From Faecalicoccus acidiformans (lineage in GTDB: Bacteria > Bacillota_I > Bacilli_A > Erysipelotrichales > Erysipelotrichaceae): a DNA stretch of 64,000 bases. The notes under the pieces were generated by a model. The model was not told where the DNA came from. It saw only the letters and a list, made by a program, of their open reading frames with translations, and searched no databases. The stretch lies in assembly GCF_014202635.1 (NCBI RefSeq), contig NZ_JACHHD010000009.1:1-64000 (forward strand). Direction: 5' to 3'. A program made the position numbers and the translations under genes. Positions 9,690 through 18,790 of the stretch are shown one piece after another. Every line of letters starts with the position of its first letter. Within the stretch, counting starts at the first letter, position 1.

Positions 9690-12683
9690 CTATATCTTTC
9701 TAAAAACTTGAATCACTACAATGAGTCCAAGAAGAATTCCTGAGAAAACAAACCAAACTCCATATCCATCGGCATTCCAGTCTACCCTTGTCGAAACCAT
9801 CGGAATCTTGATATTTTGGATCTCAAGATAAAAATATCCTTCTTTCGTTTTGGCCTTTTTTCCATCAATATAAATTCCGTCTTTTTTCACTTCCAAGAAA
9901 TATACATGGTCTAAAAGACGATATCCTTTAGGCGCTTTTACTTCTTTTAAGTACCAGGAACCTTGTTTCAGATCTTTCCAGGATACCGTTCCTTTAGAAA
10001 TATCGGTCTGTCCCGTTTGATACAGAGTATTTGCTTGTTTATCTTTGAAAAGCGCAAATTCTAATTGTGCATTTTGAATAGGTTTACCTGTATCCGCATC
10101 GACTTTTTGGACCTGCAGATCATAAAGAGGCAAGATCTCAAAAGTCTGTTTGTCGTCATTCAAATCTTCATGGGCTGCCAAAAGGTGTCCATTTTCACAG
10201 TATAGCCTTTCGGTTACGACATAAGAGGCTGGCTCGATCTGTGAAGCATCGAAGCGAAACACCATATCCACAAAACCATTTTTAGTTTCTGGCACAAAAT
10301 CCAAAACTTGGATCAGTTCTTTTCCTTCGTTTTGGATCGGTTTTTTTGTCTTAGGATCTAAGATCCTTCCCTCCAGTCGATAGGTTTTGCCAGGAACCAG
10401 CCCGAGATACTCTACGCGATCTGTGACCTCTATTTCTTCTTCTGGATACCATTCTTTCTCTTTGTTCACCGTTGTCTGGATCTGTACGCGCTTATTGGTG
10501 ATCGACTTTTCTAAAACATATTCATCTCTGTCTCGAGATCCTTGCACAAACTCAAAATCAATCGGATCTTCCAAGAGCTGATAACCTTCGATCGTCTCAA
10601 TTTCTTTTAACTGATACGATCCCAGAACCAAATCATCGATAACCAAAGAACCCGCTTCTAAAGAATAGATCCCATCCGGATGTTCTGAAGTTTCAATCCA
10701 ACTTCCCTTCGGATAAAGCAGCGTCCCATCTGCCGGATCAAATATATCTTCTTTGGCTGACAATCGAAAACGCACCTCTCCTTTGCATAGATCTTCCGAC
10801 AATCTTTCTTCAAACTCCTTATGAAGAATGATCTTCGCCTTAGGTCTTTCATTTTCGATGGTCACTTCAACTGTCGCATGCCCCTGATCGTCGACTTGCG
10901 AGACATAGCTCGATCCCAAAACGATCTTGACAGGTTCTTTTAAAAGCTGATAGCCTTGCGGAGATTCAACTTCCTGAATCTGATACGTTCCGGCTTTCAA
11001 CTTTAAAGGTGTCGTCAGAACTCCTTTTTCATCTTGAGCGACAAAGACCCCTTCTTTTTCTTTCGGGTGATTGGATGCGGTCTGGAATGTATCGTAGGTT
11101 TTGGATCCCACTCTCATCGTGACCGGCTTTCCTTCTTCGTCCAAGATCTGAAAGGATGCACCCGATGTTGATATCGGCTTTTTCGTTTGAGCATCGATTT
11201 TGATCAGACGCAGATAATATTCAAACGGTCGATTATTGATCGTATATTCTAAAGGCTCATCGGTTTCCTGGTCGATCTCAAAAGTAAAGGGTTCTTTGAG
11301 CCAATGTGTTTCCGGATCTCCGCCAGTCTGTTGAGCCATATAAGTTCCATAAGCCAACGCCTTGCTTAAAGCATACCCTTGATCATCCGTTGTCAAAATG
11401 TCCCATTCGCTGTCCGAAAATCGATCTCGATGTTCAATTGCCTTTGTGATTGAGCCATATTGGTCAACATAACGTTTGAGCACAATGGTAAATTCCGCTC
11501 CTTTTTCCGGCTTCACGATCTGCGAGATATCTTTGTCCGTAATGATCTTCTTGATTTGGATGCGGCCTGTGATCACCTCATCGCTCAGTTCTAAGATGAC
11601 ATCTTTCTGATTTGAAAAATCAATCTGTACCTGATTTGTATCTAACTGGTATCCTTCCGGCGCTTGTATTTCCTGAATTGTATACGTGCGGTCCGTAGGC
11701 AGATCACTGATGCGGTTGCTGAAGAGATCCTCTTGAATCAGAAACGTACCTGCAACTTTCTTTGTTTTGTTGTCGATCAACTGATATTGTGCACCAGCTA
11801 AAGTCGCATCCCCTTGAGAAATGTCTTGTGTTTGTGCATCTCTTTTTAAAACTTGTACACTTCCCGTTTCGACCATTGCGGATACATGCAGCTGATTAGG
11901 TATTCCTCCTGTGATATAAGCCACCGCCTGGTGGTTATACTTGCTTCGATAAGCGATGCTGACGCCTTGTTGAGGATAGAAGCAATTCATCGTCAACTGT
12001 CCGCTTTTTCCTTGACTTTTTTCCATCCATATCGTCAATTGATTGCCCTGCTGTTCATAAGAAAGCGTCCCGGAATCCAGCGTATAGTGAGAGAACACGC
12101 CATTTGTGTCTGTCAGAGTTTGGGCAAATTCTTTTCCATAGCCCGATAGAATCACTTTTTGTTGATCAAAAGAAACATCGGTCATCATAATTTTCAGACG
12201 ATTATTGATCTGATCGATCTTTGCCTGAATATCCGGATGAATTTTCACAACCAATCCCGGCATGATTTCTTGCCAAATGCGAATTTGTGTCGCGAAATCT
12301 AATTCGTGAGAATAATCCCCCTGAAAACCATAACCTAAAGCCGAGATGTACTCTAACTTTTGAGTCAATGTACTATCCCCAAAATAGTCCCCCAAATCGC
12401 TGGCAGTATAGCCCCCATTTCCATCGCTGATCAACGACAAAGGTTCAATACAGTAGACTTTCTTGCCGGAAATTGAGATCTGTGCATACGTATCAAAGTT
12501 ATAGCCAGATACATTCGATTGCGAAAGCCCCACAGCCCATTTACTGTTAGGATCCGTGATAAAGCCTTCCGGATAGTCTACTTGAACACTTAACTCCTGT
12601 GCAAATACGGGAACACTCTGCACCAGGATCATCATCACCCCTAAAAAGATCCCCAAAATTTTATGAACGGATTTTCGTATCAT
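9690..12683 (-). CDS. Surface adhesin with thioester domain and Cna_B repeats
   Basis: A 997-residue exported protein. Signal peptide to about residue 28 (VFA cleavage). Then a thioester (TQXA) domain: Cys78 in VYCIEP and Gln133 in ATQIRIWQE are the residues expected to form the internal Cys-Gln thioester that can bind host targets covalently. Four or five prealbumin-like Cna_B/SpaA domains follow (repeated EIQAPEGYQL-type ends), with one VaFE-type domain (VTDRVEYLGLVPGKTYRL) before the last. The C terminus has one membrane helix and a short basic end (FRKI), but no LPXTG; IPMVSTR stands where it would be. I chose ATG 12683 (AAGGAGG SD). No sortase or pilin genes are adjacent. Confidence 0.85.
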   Translation of the reverse strand: MIRKSVHKILGIFLGVMMILVQSVPVFAQELSVQVDYPEGFITDPNSKWAVGLSQSNVSGYNFDTYAQISISGKKVYCIEPLSLISDGNGGYTASDLGDYFGDSTLTQKLEYISALGYGFQGDYSHELDFATQIRIWQEIMPGLVVKIHPDIQAKIDQINNRLKIMMTDVSFDQQKVILSGYGKEFAQTLTDTNGVFSHYTLDSGTLSYEQQGNQLTIWMEKSQGKSGQLTMNCFYPQQGVSIAYRSKYNHQAVAYITGGIPNQLHVSAMVETGSVQVLKRDAQTQDISQGDATLAGAQYQLIDNKTKKVAGTFLIQEDLFSNRISDLPTDRTYTIQEIQAPEGYQLDTNQVQIDFSNQKDVILELSDEVITGRIQIKKIITDKDISQIVKPEKGAEFTIVLKRYVDQYGSITKAIEHRDRFSDSEWDILTTDDQGYALSKALAYGTYMAQQTGGDPETHWLKEPFTFEIDQETDEPLEYTINNRPFEYYLRLIKIDAQTKKPISTSGASFQILDEEGKPVTMRVGSKTYDTFQTASNHPKEKEGVFVAQDEKGVLTTPLKLKAGTYQIQEVESPQGYQLLKEPVKIVLGSSYVSQVDDQGHATVEVTIENERPKAKIILHKEFEERLSEDLCKGEVRFRLSAKEDIFDPADGTLLYPKGSWIETSEHPDGIYSLEAGSLVIDDLVLGSYQLKEIETIEGYQLLEDPIDFEFVQGSRDRDEYVLEKSITNKRVQIQTTVNKEKEWYPEEEIEVTDRVEYLGLVPGKTYRLEGRILDPKTKKPIQNEGKELIQVLDFVPETKNGFVDMVFRFDASQIEPASYVVTERLYCENGHLLAAHEDLNDDKQTFEILPLYDLQVQKVDADTGKPIQNAQLEFALFKDKQANTLYQTGQTDISKGTVSWKDLKQGSWYLKEVKAPKGYRLLDHVYFLEVKKDGIYIDGKKAKTKEGYFYLEIQNIKIPMVSTRVDWNADGYGVWFVFSGILLGLIVVIQVFRKI

Positions 12684-12746
12684 TCTCTCCTCCTTTTTCC
12701 TTAGACGACTACCTAGTAATAGATACGATAAAAATCCAATAGAAAA

Positions 12747-12776
12747 TAAAAAATCCCGATCATTTCTGATCAGGAT
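12747..12776 (-). terminator. Terminator overlapping the stop of the small membrane protein gene
   Basis: Arms 12753-12762 and 12767-12776 (ATCCTGATCA with TGATCGGGAT, one G-U pair) and a T-run at 12747-12752. The stop codon of the preceding gene (12760-12762) lies in the hairpin. Confidence 0.8.
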
Positions 12777-13173
12777 CTTTGTCGGCTGGTAATTCTTGTT
12801 TCTCTTCCTGGGCGCTGTTTTCACTCGGAGTGTTTTCTTCTATTTCTTTTGGTTCCTTAGCAGCTTTTATCTCTTCTTGATTCTCTGCGCTGTTTTTTTC
12901 TTCTTCCTGATTGGCTGCAATCTCAAATTCATTGCGAATTCCCTGCAGAAGCCCGACGATCGTACCCAAAGCATAGAAGATCAAAGCCATGCAGAAGGGA
13001 GTAAAAGCACTGGAGATCAAGCTGGTAAAAATTTCTGTAACCGGTGCTTGTGAACTATACGCTGCGTAATAGGTTGTAATGGAATCATAACTGTAAAAAA
13101 GCGTATAACCCATATAAACCAAAGCTACAACAGAAAAAACATAAAGGACTTGTGATAATCGCTTGTTTTTCAT
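12760..13173 (-). CDS. Small membrane protein with acidic Glu/Lys-rich tail
   Basis: A 137-residue protein of unknown family. Two hydrophobic segments (LYVFSVVALVYMGYTLF near 10-26 and FTPFCMALIFYALGTIVGLL near 57-76) are followed by about 60 residues of low-complexity, Glu/Asn/Lys-rich tail, probably disordered. Start at ATG 13173, where GAGGAAG precedes it, rather than the upstream in-frame codon. It lies between tRNA-Leu and the adhesin gene, separated from both by terminators, so no partner is indicated. Confidence 0.65.
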   Translation of the reverse strand: MKNKRLSQVLYVFSVVALVYMGYTLFYSYDSITTYYAAYSSQAPVTEIFTSLISSAFTPFCMALIFYALGTIVGLLQGIRNEFEIAANQEEEKNSAENQEEIKAAKEPKEIEENTPSENSAQEEKQELPADKDPDQK

Positions 13174-13226: not shown

Positions 13227-13312
13227 TGGTGAGGCCGATGAGACTTGAACTCACACGGGCTATGCCCACTACCCCCTCAAAGTAGCGTGTCTGCCGATTC
13301 CACCACGGCCTC
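13227..13312 (-). tRNA. tRNA-Leu (anticodon GAG)
   Basis: Class II tRNA with a long variable arm. Acceptor stem GAGGCCG/CGGCCTC, anticodon loop TTGAGGG giving anticodon GAG (reads CUC and CUU), T-arm containing GTTCAAGTC, discriminator A and an encoded CCA (13227-13229). It stands alone between rlmD and a small membrane protein gene. Confidence 0.95.
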
Positions 13313-14637: not shown

Positions 14638-14672
14638 AGCCGTATTGTATCTTTTTTTTTAATAGTTGACAA
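14635..14672 (-). promoter_or_regulatory. rlmD promoter predicting a leaderless mRNA
   Basis: TTGTCA (14667-14672), a 17-bp spacer, TACAAT (14644-14649), 6 nt, ATG (14637). Its -35 lies on the opposite strand of the marR -35. Confidence 0.75.
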
Positions 14673-14728
14673 TATCAACAAATGCCCTATAATTATATAG
14701 CGAACTATATTTTTATATAGCACGCTAT
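14666..14728 (+). promoter_or_regulatory. marR promoter with three overlapping inverted repeats (MarR operator)
   Basis: TTGACA (14666-14671), 16-bp spacer, TATAAT (14688-14693). Immediately downstream lie ATATAG-4-CTATAT (14695-14710), CTATAT-4-ATATAG (14705-14720) and ATAGC-2-GCTAT (14717-14728). They share half-sites and cover the likely start site and leader, ending just before the SD. This is a typical arrangement for autorepression by a MarR dimer. Confidence 0.75.
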
Positions 14729-14744
14729 GAGATAGGAGGTGCGC

Positions 14745-15200
14745 ATGGACAAAAGAAAATATGGCTACGGTTTTTACTTTAAATGCATTCAGTCTGCTAT
14801 CGAAAAAAATATGAATGAGACGTTGAAAGTCTTTGATTTAACGGCTTCACAAGAAAAAGTTCTCCGTTTTTTACGGTGGACAAAACTGGAAAGAGTCTCT
14901 CAAAAAGACATCGAGGAATTTTATCACATTTCCAATCCGACAGTGACCGGGATCTTAAATCGTTTAGAACAAAAAGGATATATTCGACGGATCCAAAGTC
15001 AGAAGGACAAACGTGTCCACTATATCGAAGCAACCCAGAAGGCGACAGAATTCCAAAAAGTCGTCAACAAAAATGTTCGGGAATTTGAATCTAAGATCTC
15101 CGGAAATTTAACCCCCGAAGAACAAGAGACATTGTTTGTCTTATTAGAAAAAGTAGCCAAAAATTTAATAATGGATAAGGAGGAAGAAAAACATGGTTAA
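14745..15200 (+). CDS. MarR-family transcriptional regulator
   Basis: A 151-residue winged-helix regulator. The DNA-binding part is about residues 40-105: SQKDIEEFYHISNPTVTGILNRLEQKGYIRR is helix-turn-helix and QSQKDKRVHYIEAT the wing. Helices at both ends would make the dimer. Start ATG 14745 with AGGAGG 5 nt upstream. It overlaps the following ABC gene by 8 nt and likely represses the exporter operon until a ligand releases it, via the inverted repeats in its own promoter. Confidence 0.9.
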   Translation: MDKRKYGYGFYFKCIQSAIEKNMNETLKVFDLTASQEKVLRFLRWTKLERVSQKDIEEFYHISNPTVTGILNRLEQKGYIRRIQSQKDKRVHYIEATQKATEFQKVVNKNVREFESKISGNLTPEEQETLFVLLEKVAKNLIMDKEEEKHG

Positions 15201-16932
15201 AACATTGATGGGACAAATCAAAGAATACAAGATCAACACGATCAAGTCCCCCCTTTATGTCATTATCGAAGTTATAATGGAAGTCCTGATTCCCTATCTG
15301 ATGTCCGTTCTGGTCGATCGAGGCATCGAAGAAGGAAACATGGATATTGTTTGGAAAATCGGCGGAATCATGATCGTCTGTGCTTTTATCGGACTTTGGG
15401 CCGGGGCACAGAGCGGAAAACATTCTGCTATTGCCAGCAGCGGATTTGCCAAAAATCTCAGAAAAGCTGAATATGAAAACATTCAAAAATTTGCCTTCAG
15501 TAATATTGATCAATATTCAACAGGCGGTTTGATTACGCGTATGATGACCGATGTAACCAACGTGCAGATGGCCTTTCAGATGATCATCCGCATCTGTGTA
15601 CGTGCTCCATTTATGTTAGTGGCAGCACTGGGCATGTGTTTCTTTATCAATTTCCGGTTATCCTTGGTTTTTGTGGGCGTTATCATCTTCCTTGGAATTG
15701 CCTTATTTGCGGTCAGCTTTATCGTTCATCCCGTATTTGAAAAGATGTTTCGCAAATACGATGCACTAAATGCTTCCGTACAAGAGAATATCAGCGGGAT
15801 CCGCGTTGTGAAAGCATATGTTCGCGGTAAATTTGAAACCAATAAATTCCACAAAGAAAGTGAAGACATCTATAACATTCAAATGAAAGCTGAAAAGATT
15901 TTGATCTTGAATATGCCGTTGATGCAGATGAGTATGTATGGAGCCATTTTAATGATTTCCTGGTTTGGTGCTCATATGATCGTCGGCTCTTCTTTGACGA
16001 CCGGTGAACTGATGTCTTTATTCACCTACACCGCTAATATTCTGATGTCTTTGATGATGTTCAGTATGGTCTTTATCATGGTTGTCATGTCAATTGCCAG
16101 CGGTGAACGTATTGCGCAAGTCATCAATCAGAAAAGTGATTTGGTCTCTCCTGAAAATGGAATCAAAGAGATCAAAAACGGTCAGATCGATTTTGAAGAT
16201 GTATATTTTGAGTACACAAACATTCAGGATGAAGCAAACTATGTCTTAGACAATATCGATTTGCATATCCCTAGCGGTTCTACTTTAGGAATTTTGGGTG
16301 CTACCGGTTCCGCTAAATCCAGCCTGGTACAGCTGATTCCAAGATTGTATGATGTCACAGGCGGAAGCGTTAAAGTGGCCGGCATCGATGTGCGCGACTA
16401 CGATCTGGAAAGCCTGCGCAACAGTGTCGCCATGGTTCTTCAGAAAAATGTCTTGTTTTCTGGAACCATTAAAGAAAACATGCGTTGGGGAAACCCAAAT
16501 GCCACAGATGAGGAAATCGAAGAAGTTTGTAAATTGGCACAAGCGGATGAGTTCATCCAGAAAATGCCAGATAAATACGATACCTACATCGAACAGGGGG
16601 GAACCAATGTTTCCGGTGGGCAGCGTCAAAGACTTTGTATCGCACGTGCCTTGTTGAAAAAGCCGAAAATCCTGATCTTGGATGATTCCACAAGCGCAGT
16701 AGATACAAAGACAGATGCCTTGATTCGTCAAGCCTTTATGGAAAAGATTCCCGATACAACTCGTATCATCATCTCTCAGCGCGTAAGCTCGATCCAAGAT
16801 TCAGATCAGATCTTAGTCTTAGATGAAGGAAGGATCTCAGGTCTGGGAACACACGAAGAATTATTGGAATCAAATAAACTTTACCGTGAAACTTTCATGG
16901 AACAGCAGAAAGGAGGAAGCCTCAGTGAATAA
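15193..16932 (+). CDS. ABC exporter half-transporter, degenerate nucleotide site
   Basis: A 579-residue exporter half: six membrane helices (to about 320) followed by an ATPase domain. Walker A reads GATGSAKSS (Ala in place of the third Gly), the C-loop is VSGGQ, Walker B is ILILDDSTSAVD with Asp instead of the catalytic Glu, and the switch residue is Gln (SQR) instead of His. These changes mark the non-catalytic site of a heterodimeric multidrug or lipid exporter. The partner is the next gene, overlapping by 8 nt. Substrate unknown; marR control suggests drug or toxic-compound efflux. Confidence 0.9.
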   Translation: MVKTLMGQIKEYKINTIKSPLYVIIEVIMEVLIPYLMSVLVDRGIEEGNMDIVWKIGGIMIVCAFIGLWAGAQSGKHSAIASSGFAKNLRKAEYENIQKFAFSNIDQYSTGGLITRMMTDVTNVQMAFQMIIRICVRAPFMLVAALGMCFFINFRLSLVFVGVIIFLGIALFAVSFIVHPVFEKMFRKYDALNASVQENISGIRVVKAYVRGKFETNKFHKESEDIYNIQMKAEKILILNMPLMQMSMYGAILMISWFGAHMIVGSSLTTGELMSLFTYTANILMSLMMFSMVFIMVVMSIASGERIAQVINQKSDLVSPENGIKEIKNGQIDFEDVYFEYTNIQDEANYVLDNIDLHIPSGSTLGILGATGSAKSSLVQLIPRLYDVTGGSVKVAGIDVRDYDLESLRNSVAMVLQKNVLFSGTIKENMRWGNPNATDEEIEEVCKLAQADEFIQKMPDKYDTYIEQGGTNVSGGQRQRLCIARALLKKPKILILDDSTSAVDTKTDALIRQAFMEKIPDTTRIIISQRVSSIQDSDQILVLDEGRISGLGTHEELLESNKLYRETFMEQQKGGSLSE

Positions 16933-18790
16933 TCAAAAACCGACAAACGGTCTTGGACGAATCCTCAAGACAACGATCAAAAATTATAAACTGGCTTGCT
17001 TCTTCATCCTGATCTTTATTTTGATCAGCTGCTTTGCCAACGTCTACGGAAGTACATTCCTCAAAGATTTGATCGATGTGTACATCGTCCCGATGCTGGC
17101 CCAGGAAGAAGCTGATTTCGGACCATTGATCCAGGCCCTTTTAACTTTAGCTTCAATCTATATCTTAGGAATTCTTTGTACGTATCTCTATAACCGAATT
17201 TTGTTGAATGTGGCCCTAGGTACATTACGAGATACTCGTGATCGTTTGTTTGAACATATGGAGACTTTGCCTATCGGCTATTTTGACACACATTCTCATG
17301 GCGATATCATGTCGATCTATACAAACGATACCGATACTTTACGTCAGCTTTTGACGATGGCCGCTCCGCAGTTGATCGTCAGTGTGGTTACGATGATCTC
17401 TGTCCTGATTTCCATGCTTTTGCTTGATATTCCTTTGACTTTGGTCGCCATCATTATCGCAATCATCATGGTCATTTCTTCTAAATTCATCACGACCCGA
17501 TCTGCTCGTTACTTCCGGGCTCAACAAGAAGACTTGGGTAAAGTCAATGGCTTTATTGAAGAAATGGTAGAAGGAAGCAAGGTCATTAAAGTCTTCTGTC
17601 ATGAAGAACAAAGTGTTAAAGATTTTGACAAGGTCAATGAACAGTTATTTCATGCCAGTGCCAATGCAAACATGTTTGCGAATATCTTAATGCCGATCAT
17701 TGGAAACTTAGGTTACTTAAGTTATGTCATCACTGCCCTTGTAGGTTCGATGATGGCTGTTCATGGTATTGGAGGTTTAACACTGGGAACCATTGCGGCT
17801 TTCTTGCAGCTGAACCGTTCTTTCAACACCCCAATCGGTCAGATCTCGCAACAAGTCAATTCCGTTGTGATGGCCGGAGCCGGTGCTTCACGTATCTACG
17901 CCTTATTGGATTCACCAAGTGAAGTCGATGACGGAAAAGTCACCTTGACTTGTGTAGAAGTCAACGAGGATGGAAGCTACACAGAAACCGATAAAAATAC
18001 GGGACACTGGTGTTGGAAACACCCTAGACAAGATGGAACTGTCGATTATGTTCCATGGAAAGGGGATGTCCGATTCCATAATGTTGTCTTTGGCTACAAT
18101 GAAAAGAAAACGATTCTGCATGATATCAACTTATTTGCCAAACCAGGAGAAAAGATTGCTTTTGTAGGGGCTACCGGAGCGGGTAAAACGACGATCACAA
18201 ATCTGATCAACCGCTTCTATGATATTCAACAAGGATCCATTACATACGATGGCATCGATGTCAAACTGATCAAAAAGGATGACCTGCGTCACTCTCTGGG
18301 AATCGTTTTACAAGATACCAACTTGTTTACAGGAACAATCATGGATAACATCCGTTACGGAAAACTGGATGCGACCGACGATGAATGTATCAAAGCGGCT
18401 AAATTAGCGAATGCACACGAATTCATCAAACATCTGGATCACGGCTATCAAACCATGATCACCGGTTCAGGGACTTCTCTTTCCCAAGGTCAGAAACAAT
18501 TGTTGTCCATCGCACGAGCTGCCGTTGCCAATCCGCCTGTGCTCATCTTAGATGAAGCTACTTCTTCTATCGATACGCACACAGAACGTATCGTCCAGGA
18601 TGGTATGGATAAACTGATGCAGGGACGAACTGTGTTTGTCATCGCGCATCGTCTGAGCACGATCCAAAACAGCGATGCGATCATGGTCTTGGAAAATGGT
18701 CGAATCATTGAGCGAGGCAATCACGATGAACTCATCAAACAAAAAGGAACCTATTATCAGCTTTACACAGGTGCCTTCGAATTAGAATAA
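16925..18790 (+). CDS. ABC exporter half-transporter, canonical nucleotide site
   Basis: A 621-residue partner of the preceding exporter half. Membrane domain to about 340, then an insertion of about 50 residues (containing TGHWCWKHP) between membrane and ATPase domains, then a canonical ATPase: GATGAGKTT, LSQGQ, ILDEATSSID with catalytic Glu, and AHR switch His. GTG start at 16925 (SD AAAGGAGG), overlapping the previous gene. Ends the marR operon at a strong terminator. Confidence 0.9.
   Translation: MNNQKPTNGLGRILKTTIKNYKLACFFILIFILISCFANVYGSTFLKDLIDVYIVPMLAQEEADFGPLIQALLTLASIYILGILCTYLYNRILLNVALGTLRDTRDRLFEHMETLPIGYFDTHSHGDIMSIYTNDTDTLRQLLTMAAPQLIVSVVTMISVLISMLLLDIPLTLVAIIIAIIMVISSKFITTRSARYFRAQQEDLGKVNGFIEEMVEGSKVIKVFCHEEQSVKDFDKVNEQLFHASANANMFANILMPIIGNLGYLSYVITALVGSMMAVHGIGGLTLGTIAAFLQLNRSFNTPIGQISQQVNSVVMAGAGASRIYALLDSPSEVDDGKVTLTCVEVNEDGSYTETDKNTGHWCWKHPRQDGTVDYVPWKGDVRFHNVVFGYNEKKTILHDINLFAKPGEKIAFVGATGAGKTTITNLINRFYDIQQGSITYDGIDVKLIKKDDLRHSLGIVLQDTNLFTGTIMDNIRYGKLDATDDECIKAAKLANAHEFIKHLDHGYQTMITGSGTSLSQGQKQLLSIARAAVANPPVLILDEATSSIDTHTERIVQDGMDKLMQGRTVFVIAHRLSTIQNSDAIMVLENGRIIERGNHDELIKQKGTYYQLYTGAFELE

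Follow-up and report, generated by a model that had tools for sequence, protein, structure and literature searches.

A -35 box likely shared by divergent rlmD and marR promoters in Faecalicoccus acidiformans

The rlmD-marR intergenic region

We analyzed a 64,000-nucleotide stretch of the genome of the gut bacterium Faecalicoccus acidiformans (GCF_014202635.1, contig NZ_JACHHD010000009.1, positions 1 to 64,000), hereafter the window, in which an RlmD-family gene reads leftward and a MarR-family gene reads rightward, followed by two ABC exporter genes (Table 1). Family profiles support each of these identities as originally predicted, and the DNA-binding domain of the window's MarR is present (PF01047, PF12802). 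The true start of the second exporter gene probably lies further in than that of its longest open reading frame. Directly downstream of rlmD sits a tRNA-Leu (gag) gene (13227-13312, minus strand), preceded by an 11/12 promoter-like site at 13352-13324. A 1044-aa open reading frame at 9690-12824 (minus strand) carries repeated domains and a membrane segment at its C terminus, resembling a surface adhesin or a protein of pilin type.

Table 1. Features of the rlmD-marR locus and of a second shared-box site (window positions unless a locus is named)
Feature	Position	Strand	Basis or remark
rlmD, 23S rRNA uracil-C5-methyltransferase family, 432 aa	13339..14637	-	TIGR00479, 347.5 bits (cut-off 183.55)
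Predicted rlmD transcription start, A of the ATG	14637	-	from -10 spacing
rlmD -10 TACAAT	14644..14649	-	17 bp from box, 6 nt before ATG
Likely shared -35 box TTGACAA	14666..14672	.	TTGACA rightward for marR, TTGTCA leftward for rlmD
marR -10 TATAAT	14688..14693	+	16 bp from box; predicted +1 near 14700
Operator-like inverted repeat 1, ATAGCGAACTAT	14697..14708	.	covers predicted marR +1; same position in four Faecalicoccus genomes
Operator-like inverted repeat 2, ATAGCACGCTAT	14717..14728	.	20 bp centre to centre from repeat 1
marR Shine-Dalgarno AGGAGG	14734..14739	+	
marR, MarR-family regulator, 151 aa	14745..15200	+	PF01047, 48 bits
ABC exporter half-transporter 1	15193..16932	+	PF00664 and PF00005
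ABC exporter half-transporter 2	16823..18790	+	PF00664 and PF00005; coordinates of longest ORF
ArsR-like shared-box case	L096:1990-2386, L097:1980-2379 (G003:C9:44781-44840, G002:C11:15574-15633)		ArsR-like named from sequence

A sequence scan placed a promoter for each gene on opposite strands of the same heptamer. The marR promoter scores 12/12 (TTGACA at 14666-14671) and the rlmD promoter 10/12 (TTGTCA at 14672-14667), such that the core elements of the two outward promoters overlap, the -35 hexamers by 5 bp. The position of the box, its reading on both strands, both -10 elements and both spacers agree letter for letter with the original prediction. The 7-mer TTGWCAA reads identically on both strands, and any TTGACAA -35 element scores 5/6 as a -35 element on the opposite strand; sharing is therefore almost free, a second -10 being the sole additional need. 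The predicted marR and rlmD start sites lie 63 bp apart.

Two inverted repeats lie at marR's own promoter, on and just after its predicted start, as expected of an autoregulated operon, and are likely MarR operators. They are in register across four Faecalicoccus genomes, and ATAG-N4-CTAT repeats precede marR in all 18 of the divergent rlmD/marR pairs described below (1-3 matches per locus in the stretch scanned). Relative to the predicted rlmD start the repeats are centred at -65.5 and -85.5, about the edge of an rlmD-bound polymerase. Genome-wide, the repeat motif gave 4 matches versus 8 for a reversed control, and thus no excess. A wider MarR regulon was considered and rejected, the repeat pattern occurring at one further place in the genome (C6:101345), with no excess over the reversed control.

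Conservation of the divergent pair and of the box

RlmD matches were found in 105 of 115 sampled genomes of the family Erysipelotrichaceae (E up to 1e-60). Among 50 rlmD loci read, marR lay divergently upstream in 18, a count obtained with the window's MarR as sole tblastn query (E 1e-4 or 1e-2) over approximately 150-1500 bp of upstream DNA, which may therefore miss marR genes that are distant in sequence or lie farther away; 20 of the loci were picked down the match lists with several skipped, and one locus in which the rlmD start is missing (L037) was left out of the count in favor of another from the same genome (L004). An exporter homologue lies beyond marR in 17 of the 18 divergent pairs, and in the remaining one (G084) the contig ends inside marR. 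In a midpoint-rooted RlmD tree of 30 rows, the 17 of these 18 pairs that it includes fall into one 20-row group with 100/100 support, which also holds three genomes in which no marR was found at this position (G025, G014 and G077). We refer to 23 loci as clade A, three of them (G258, G140 and G139) assigned by similarity and not by the tree.

The original prediction had proposed conservation of the overlap in relatives as a check, and this was borne out in part. A 5-bp overlap of the -35 hexamers, in an identical layout, occurs in 10 of the 18 pairs, spanning three genera (Faecalicoccus, g1, 4/4 read; g22, 2/2; g2, 4/4 read), but the other eight pairs lack a shared box. Seven of the ten sharing pairs carry an exact TTGACAA, and three g2 genomes have imperfect boxes, GTGACAA (G084), TTCGCAA (G116) and CTGGCAA (G258), together with weak marR -10 elements. 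The four Faecalicoccus genomes agree fully in the TTGACAA box, the marR -10 and the core of the marR Shine-Dalgarno sequence and almost fully in the repeats, while their spacers drift. Among the eight pairs without sharing, the boxes lie 6-10 bp apart in g57 and farther in g4, g54 and g70, and in G016 they are displaced with a 2-bp overlap. Promoter picks by script were poor for g70, and likewise for marR in G136 and G113, where -10 elements inside the repeat had been excluded; for G113 the script gives a 2-bp overlap, and on visual inspection tens of bases separate the TTGACA box from the rlmD -35 in both G136 and G113. In four non-sharing genomes (G086, G136, G065 and G006) the first operator-like repeat is approximately 102-430 bp from the rlmD start, and divergent synteny persists. 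Given that eight of the 18 pairs lack a shared box, coupling is not needed across the clade.

The comparison also bears on whether the rlmD promoter is a working one. The rlmD -35 scores 4-5 of 6 in the ten sharing pairs versus 0-4 in the eight others (Mann-Whitney p 0.0002, a guide only given the relatedness of the loci), an association that is partly built in, as TTGACAA is already 5/6 on the other strand. Five of the eight non-sharing pairs have an extended -10. Across 20 rlmD promoters, an extended -10 (TGN) accompanied six of eight weak -35 elements (score of 3 or less) versus two of 12 better ones (Fisher p 0.019, again no more than a guide, with the cut-off for a weak -35 set after the data were seen). 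That a fading -35 is replaced by an extended -10, the other known route of polymerase recruitment, while the -10 itself stays in place is good evidence that the rlmD promoter functions. Physical sharing of the box by both promoters is likely.

How often such sites arise by chance was evaluated at several scales. A general promoter scan of 9 kb found 19 promoter-like sites versus 19.5 expected and has no power. We then counted 193 TTGNCAA boxes in 304 kb of the window's genome (G000; the window plus 12 further stretches), of which the box at 14666-14672 was the only one scoring at least 10/12 in both directions, whereas first-order Markov resampling gave a mean of 0.43 such sites (0.08 with minimum scores of 11 and 10). 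Lowering the threshold to 9/12 in both directions gave 12 sites in the same 304 kb versus 13.5 expected, with no excess. The rarity of the double site is by itself suggestive only, and the decisive support for the shared box is its conservation.

Across 266 family genomes, the pattern of -10, box and -10 at functional spacing gave 76 matches at 50 sites, compared to 9 matches for a reversed-pattern control. Displaced controls gave 35 and 33 matches, which, after allowing for the smaller number of distinct spacings (14 versus 18), corresponds to about 26 expected sites; when likely orthologues were collapsed by eye, 40 sites remained versus 24.5 expected (binomial p 0.011). Shared-box promoter pairs are modestly enriched in the family and not unique to the window's site.

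Predicted leaderless rlmD mRNA

Because the rlmD -10 ends 6 nt before the ATG, the expected +1 is the A of the start codon and the mRNA is probably leaderless. Of 23 clade-A loci, 17 have a TANNNT hexamer at a distance of exactly 6 nt from the rlmD ATG, and no other distance between 0 and 30 holds one in more than three loci (in G068 the script chose TATACT at 6 nt, which overlaps TATTAT at 9 nt). When distances of 6-8 nt are allowed, 20 of the 23 loci, the window's included, have TANNNT and no Shine-Dalgarno sequence by motif list (in G086 and G139 the counted ATG differs from the aligned first residue, and in G086 it is upstream of the homologous start); the three exceptions (G025, G014 and G140) have an SD-like sequence instead. 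Every one of the 18 divergent pairs has a -10-like hexamer 6-8 nt before the ATG and no Shine-Dalgarno sequence. Outside clade A the layout occurs in three of 27 loci (L079, L080 and L081), each with a perfect TATAAT. In these three rlmD upstream regions, from G063, G092 and G105, TATAAT stands 6 nt before the ATG directly behind a T-rich run that is perhaps the terminator of the preceding gene, and no marR match was found in the stretch read.

We also assessed promoter-to-ATG distances across open reading frames sampled from three genomes. At a 9/12 threshold, a distance of 6 was found for 7 of 282 ORFs in G000 (other distances from 0 to 40: mean 1.2, maximum 5) and 4 of 121 in G004 (mean 0.5, maximum 3), and the F. 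pleomorphus sample (G003) showed no excess, with 1 of 200 (mean 0.97, maximum 4 elsewhere). A looser threshold gave 10 at distance 6 in G000 (mean 3.2, maximum 10), 10 in G004 (mean 1.7, maximum 6) and 3 in G003 (mean 2.6, maximum 7), and the G000 excess fades, another distance also reaching 10. From these distributions, leaderless genes look common in G004, are likely in G000 and are not detectable in the G003 sample. Full-consensus promoter patterns in 41 genomes had an ATG at 6, 9 and 12 nt in 16, 11 and 8 matches, respectively, a weak count, since the majority of ATGs do not begin a gene; counting by ORF is preferable. A full-consensus promoter at G000:C2:56165-56205, with matching sites in G001, G002 and G003, has an ATG 9 nt after its TATAAT and may be a further case of a very short leader.

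According to a 2011 survey, leaderless genes in Firmicutes occur mainly among certain Lactobacillales and in Mycoplasma (PMC3160421), and reported extents include 8.6% of S. pyogenes mRNAs (PMC6431027), under 1% in Enterococcus (PMC7724050) and nine transcripts in M. gallisepticum (PMC4245973). The closest parallel is that of the conserved streptococcal leaderless mRNAs, which likewise come from low-GC Gram-positive bacteria, have transcripts starting on the start codon and are kept across species, with 54 of 67 in S. pyogenes also found in S. agalactiae (PMC6431027). Those are mapped transcripts from Lactobacillales, whereas the rlmD case is read from sequence in Erysipelotrichaceae. The rlmD spacing points to conserved leaderless genes in this family, of which a partial literature search found no report.

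Polymerase competition and its alternatives

Taken jointly, these observations are explained with fair probability by back-to-back promoters on a shared box, a leaderless rlmD and a MarR-gated exporter operon, with the polymerase share shifting when MarR is released. Two housekeeping-sigma promoters would stand back to back on opposite strands of one self-complementary -35 box, the rightward full-consensus promoter driving an autoregulated marR-ABC-ABC exporter operon and the leftward good promoter giving an rlmD transcript that would begin at the A of the ATG. As the predicted start sites are 63 bp apart, two polymerases could not hold the site at once. With MarR on both repeats, which lie near -65 and -85 of rlmD and so just outside the rlmD polymerase, marR would be blocked and rlmD left free; the default would then be exporter off and rlmD on. 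A ligand releasing MarR would allow the strong marR promoter to take a larger share of the site. The sequence, the geometry and the conservation are observed directly, and from them we infer the transcription starts, MarR binding, and the direction and size of the competition effect.

The original prediction held that the two transcription units must compete. Its structural part stands, with well-formed promoters for both genes on one box and a layout conserved in 10 of the 18 divergent pairs and three genera; coupling as a requirement does not, as the other eight pairs keep divergent synteny without such sharing. In the work of Warman et al. 2026, E. coli promoters with a shared element showed no competition at basal strength, with basal activity too low for it at all five promoters tested, and competition once one direction was strengthened (PMC12825309). 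The 12/12 match of the marR promoter suggests the strong regime once MarR leaves, making polymerase competition at the shared box plausible. That derepressing marR would measurably affect rlmD has even chances at best, and a biologically selected switch at the box is unlikely.

The strongest alternative, to which we give slightly less than even chances, is that the shared box is real but has no regulatory consequence, compact intergenic DNA and a palindromic -35 having placed together two sub-saturating promoters with no mutual effect. The near-free sharing offered by TTGWCAA is consistent with this, as are the weaker double sites at chance level in G000 (12 versus 13.5), the modest size of the excess across 266 genomes (50 versus about 26; collapsed, 40 versus 24.5, p 0.011), the eight pairs in which the box is not common to both promoters, and the absence of competition at basal activity for the five E. 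coli promoters (PMC12825309). Against it, the marR promoter at 12/12 is nearer the condition under which competition was seen, and sharing is kept in all four Faecalicoccus genomes despite drifting spacers.

An extension of the competition model to a drug-responsive trade-off seems unlikely: MarR release would draw polymerase from the box and lower rlmD, new ribosomes would carry less m5U in their 23S rRNA under drug stress, and the leaderless mRNA would add another level of control by way of altered initiation under stress.

Somewhat less probable still is direct action of MarR on rlmD, either by contact activation from about -65 or by repression, with the shared box incidental. Such action would fit the conserved divergent synteny, and the centre of repeat 1 stands 65.5 bp upstream of the predicted rlmD start in each of the four Faecalicoccus genomes and 54.5-66.5 bp upstream across the ten sharing pairs, but among all 18 pairs this distance varies between 54.5 and 429.5 bp, which leaves no fixed contact geometry, and MarR proteins act mostly as repressors. 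We rejected MarR as a fixed-distance activator of rlmD, for which these distances vary too much. Least probable of all is that rlmD is transcribed mainly from another promoter with an ordinary leader, the -10 beside its ATG being coincidental: AT-rich DNA abounds in promoter-like sites (19 versus 19.5 expected in 9 kb) and the G003 sample shows no leaderless-type excess, but the exact 6-nt spacing in 17 of 23 clade-A loci, the missing Shine-Dalgarno sequence in 20 and the SD-like sequence in the three exceptions argue against it.

Among the nearest known relatives of the arrangement are overlapping back-to-back divergent promoters, reportedly a classical category since Beck and Warren 1988, in which a regulator gene and its neighbour likewise read outward from one short region with overlapping polymerase sites. 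The rlmD/marR pair differs from these in that the overlap is one palindromic 7-mer, one mRNA is predicted to be leaderless and the neighbour is a housekeeping rRNA methylase. RcrRPQ of Streptococcus mutans is an example of an autoregulated MarR-ABC-ABC exporter operon; it resembles the present one in gene layout, with two half-size ABC exporters encoded behind the MarR gene, whereas here the promoter region is likely shared with rlmD.

The bidirectional promoters of Warman, Grainger and colleagues likewise use one pseudo-symmetric element on both strands with one polymerase at a time, and one of them, PacrA/acrR, also separates a repressor gene from a drug-efflux operon (PMC12825309). In those promoters the -10 is shared and the starts lie either side of or within it, whereas rlmD and marR share the -35 and have separate -10 elements (14644-14649 and 14688-14693) with starts 63 bp apart, which places them outside the bidirectional definition of Warman et al. 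(PMC12825309). A partial literature search found no described case of a -35 shared between divergent promoters, and two papers containing the phrase '35 boxes overlap' dealt with another subject. Overlapping divergent promoters are known; the proposed combination of leaderless mRNA, shared box and MarR gating would be new. If true, it would provide a conserved natural example in which a palindromic -35 links two promoters, and one in which the repressor of one gene could indirectly activate a housekeeping gene.

The genus holds a second conserved TTGACAA of this kind (Table 1). In G003 and G002 an ArsR-like regulator gene, which was not found in G000 or in the 79% complete G001 (E up to 1e-15), has its -10 6 nt before the ATG and shares the box with a divergent promoter-like sequence.
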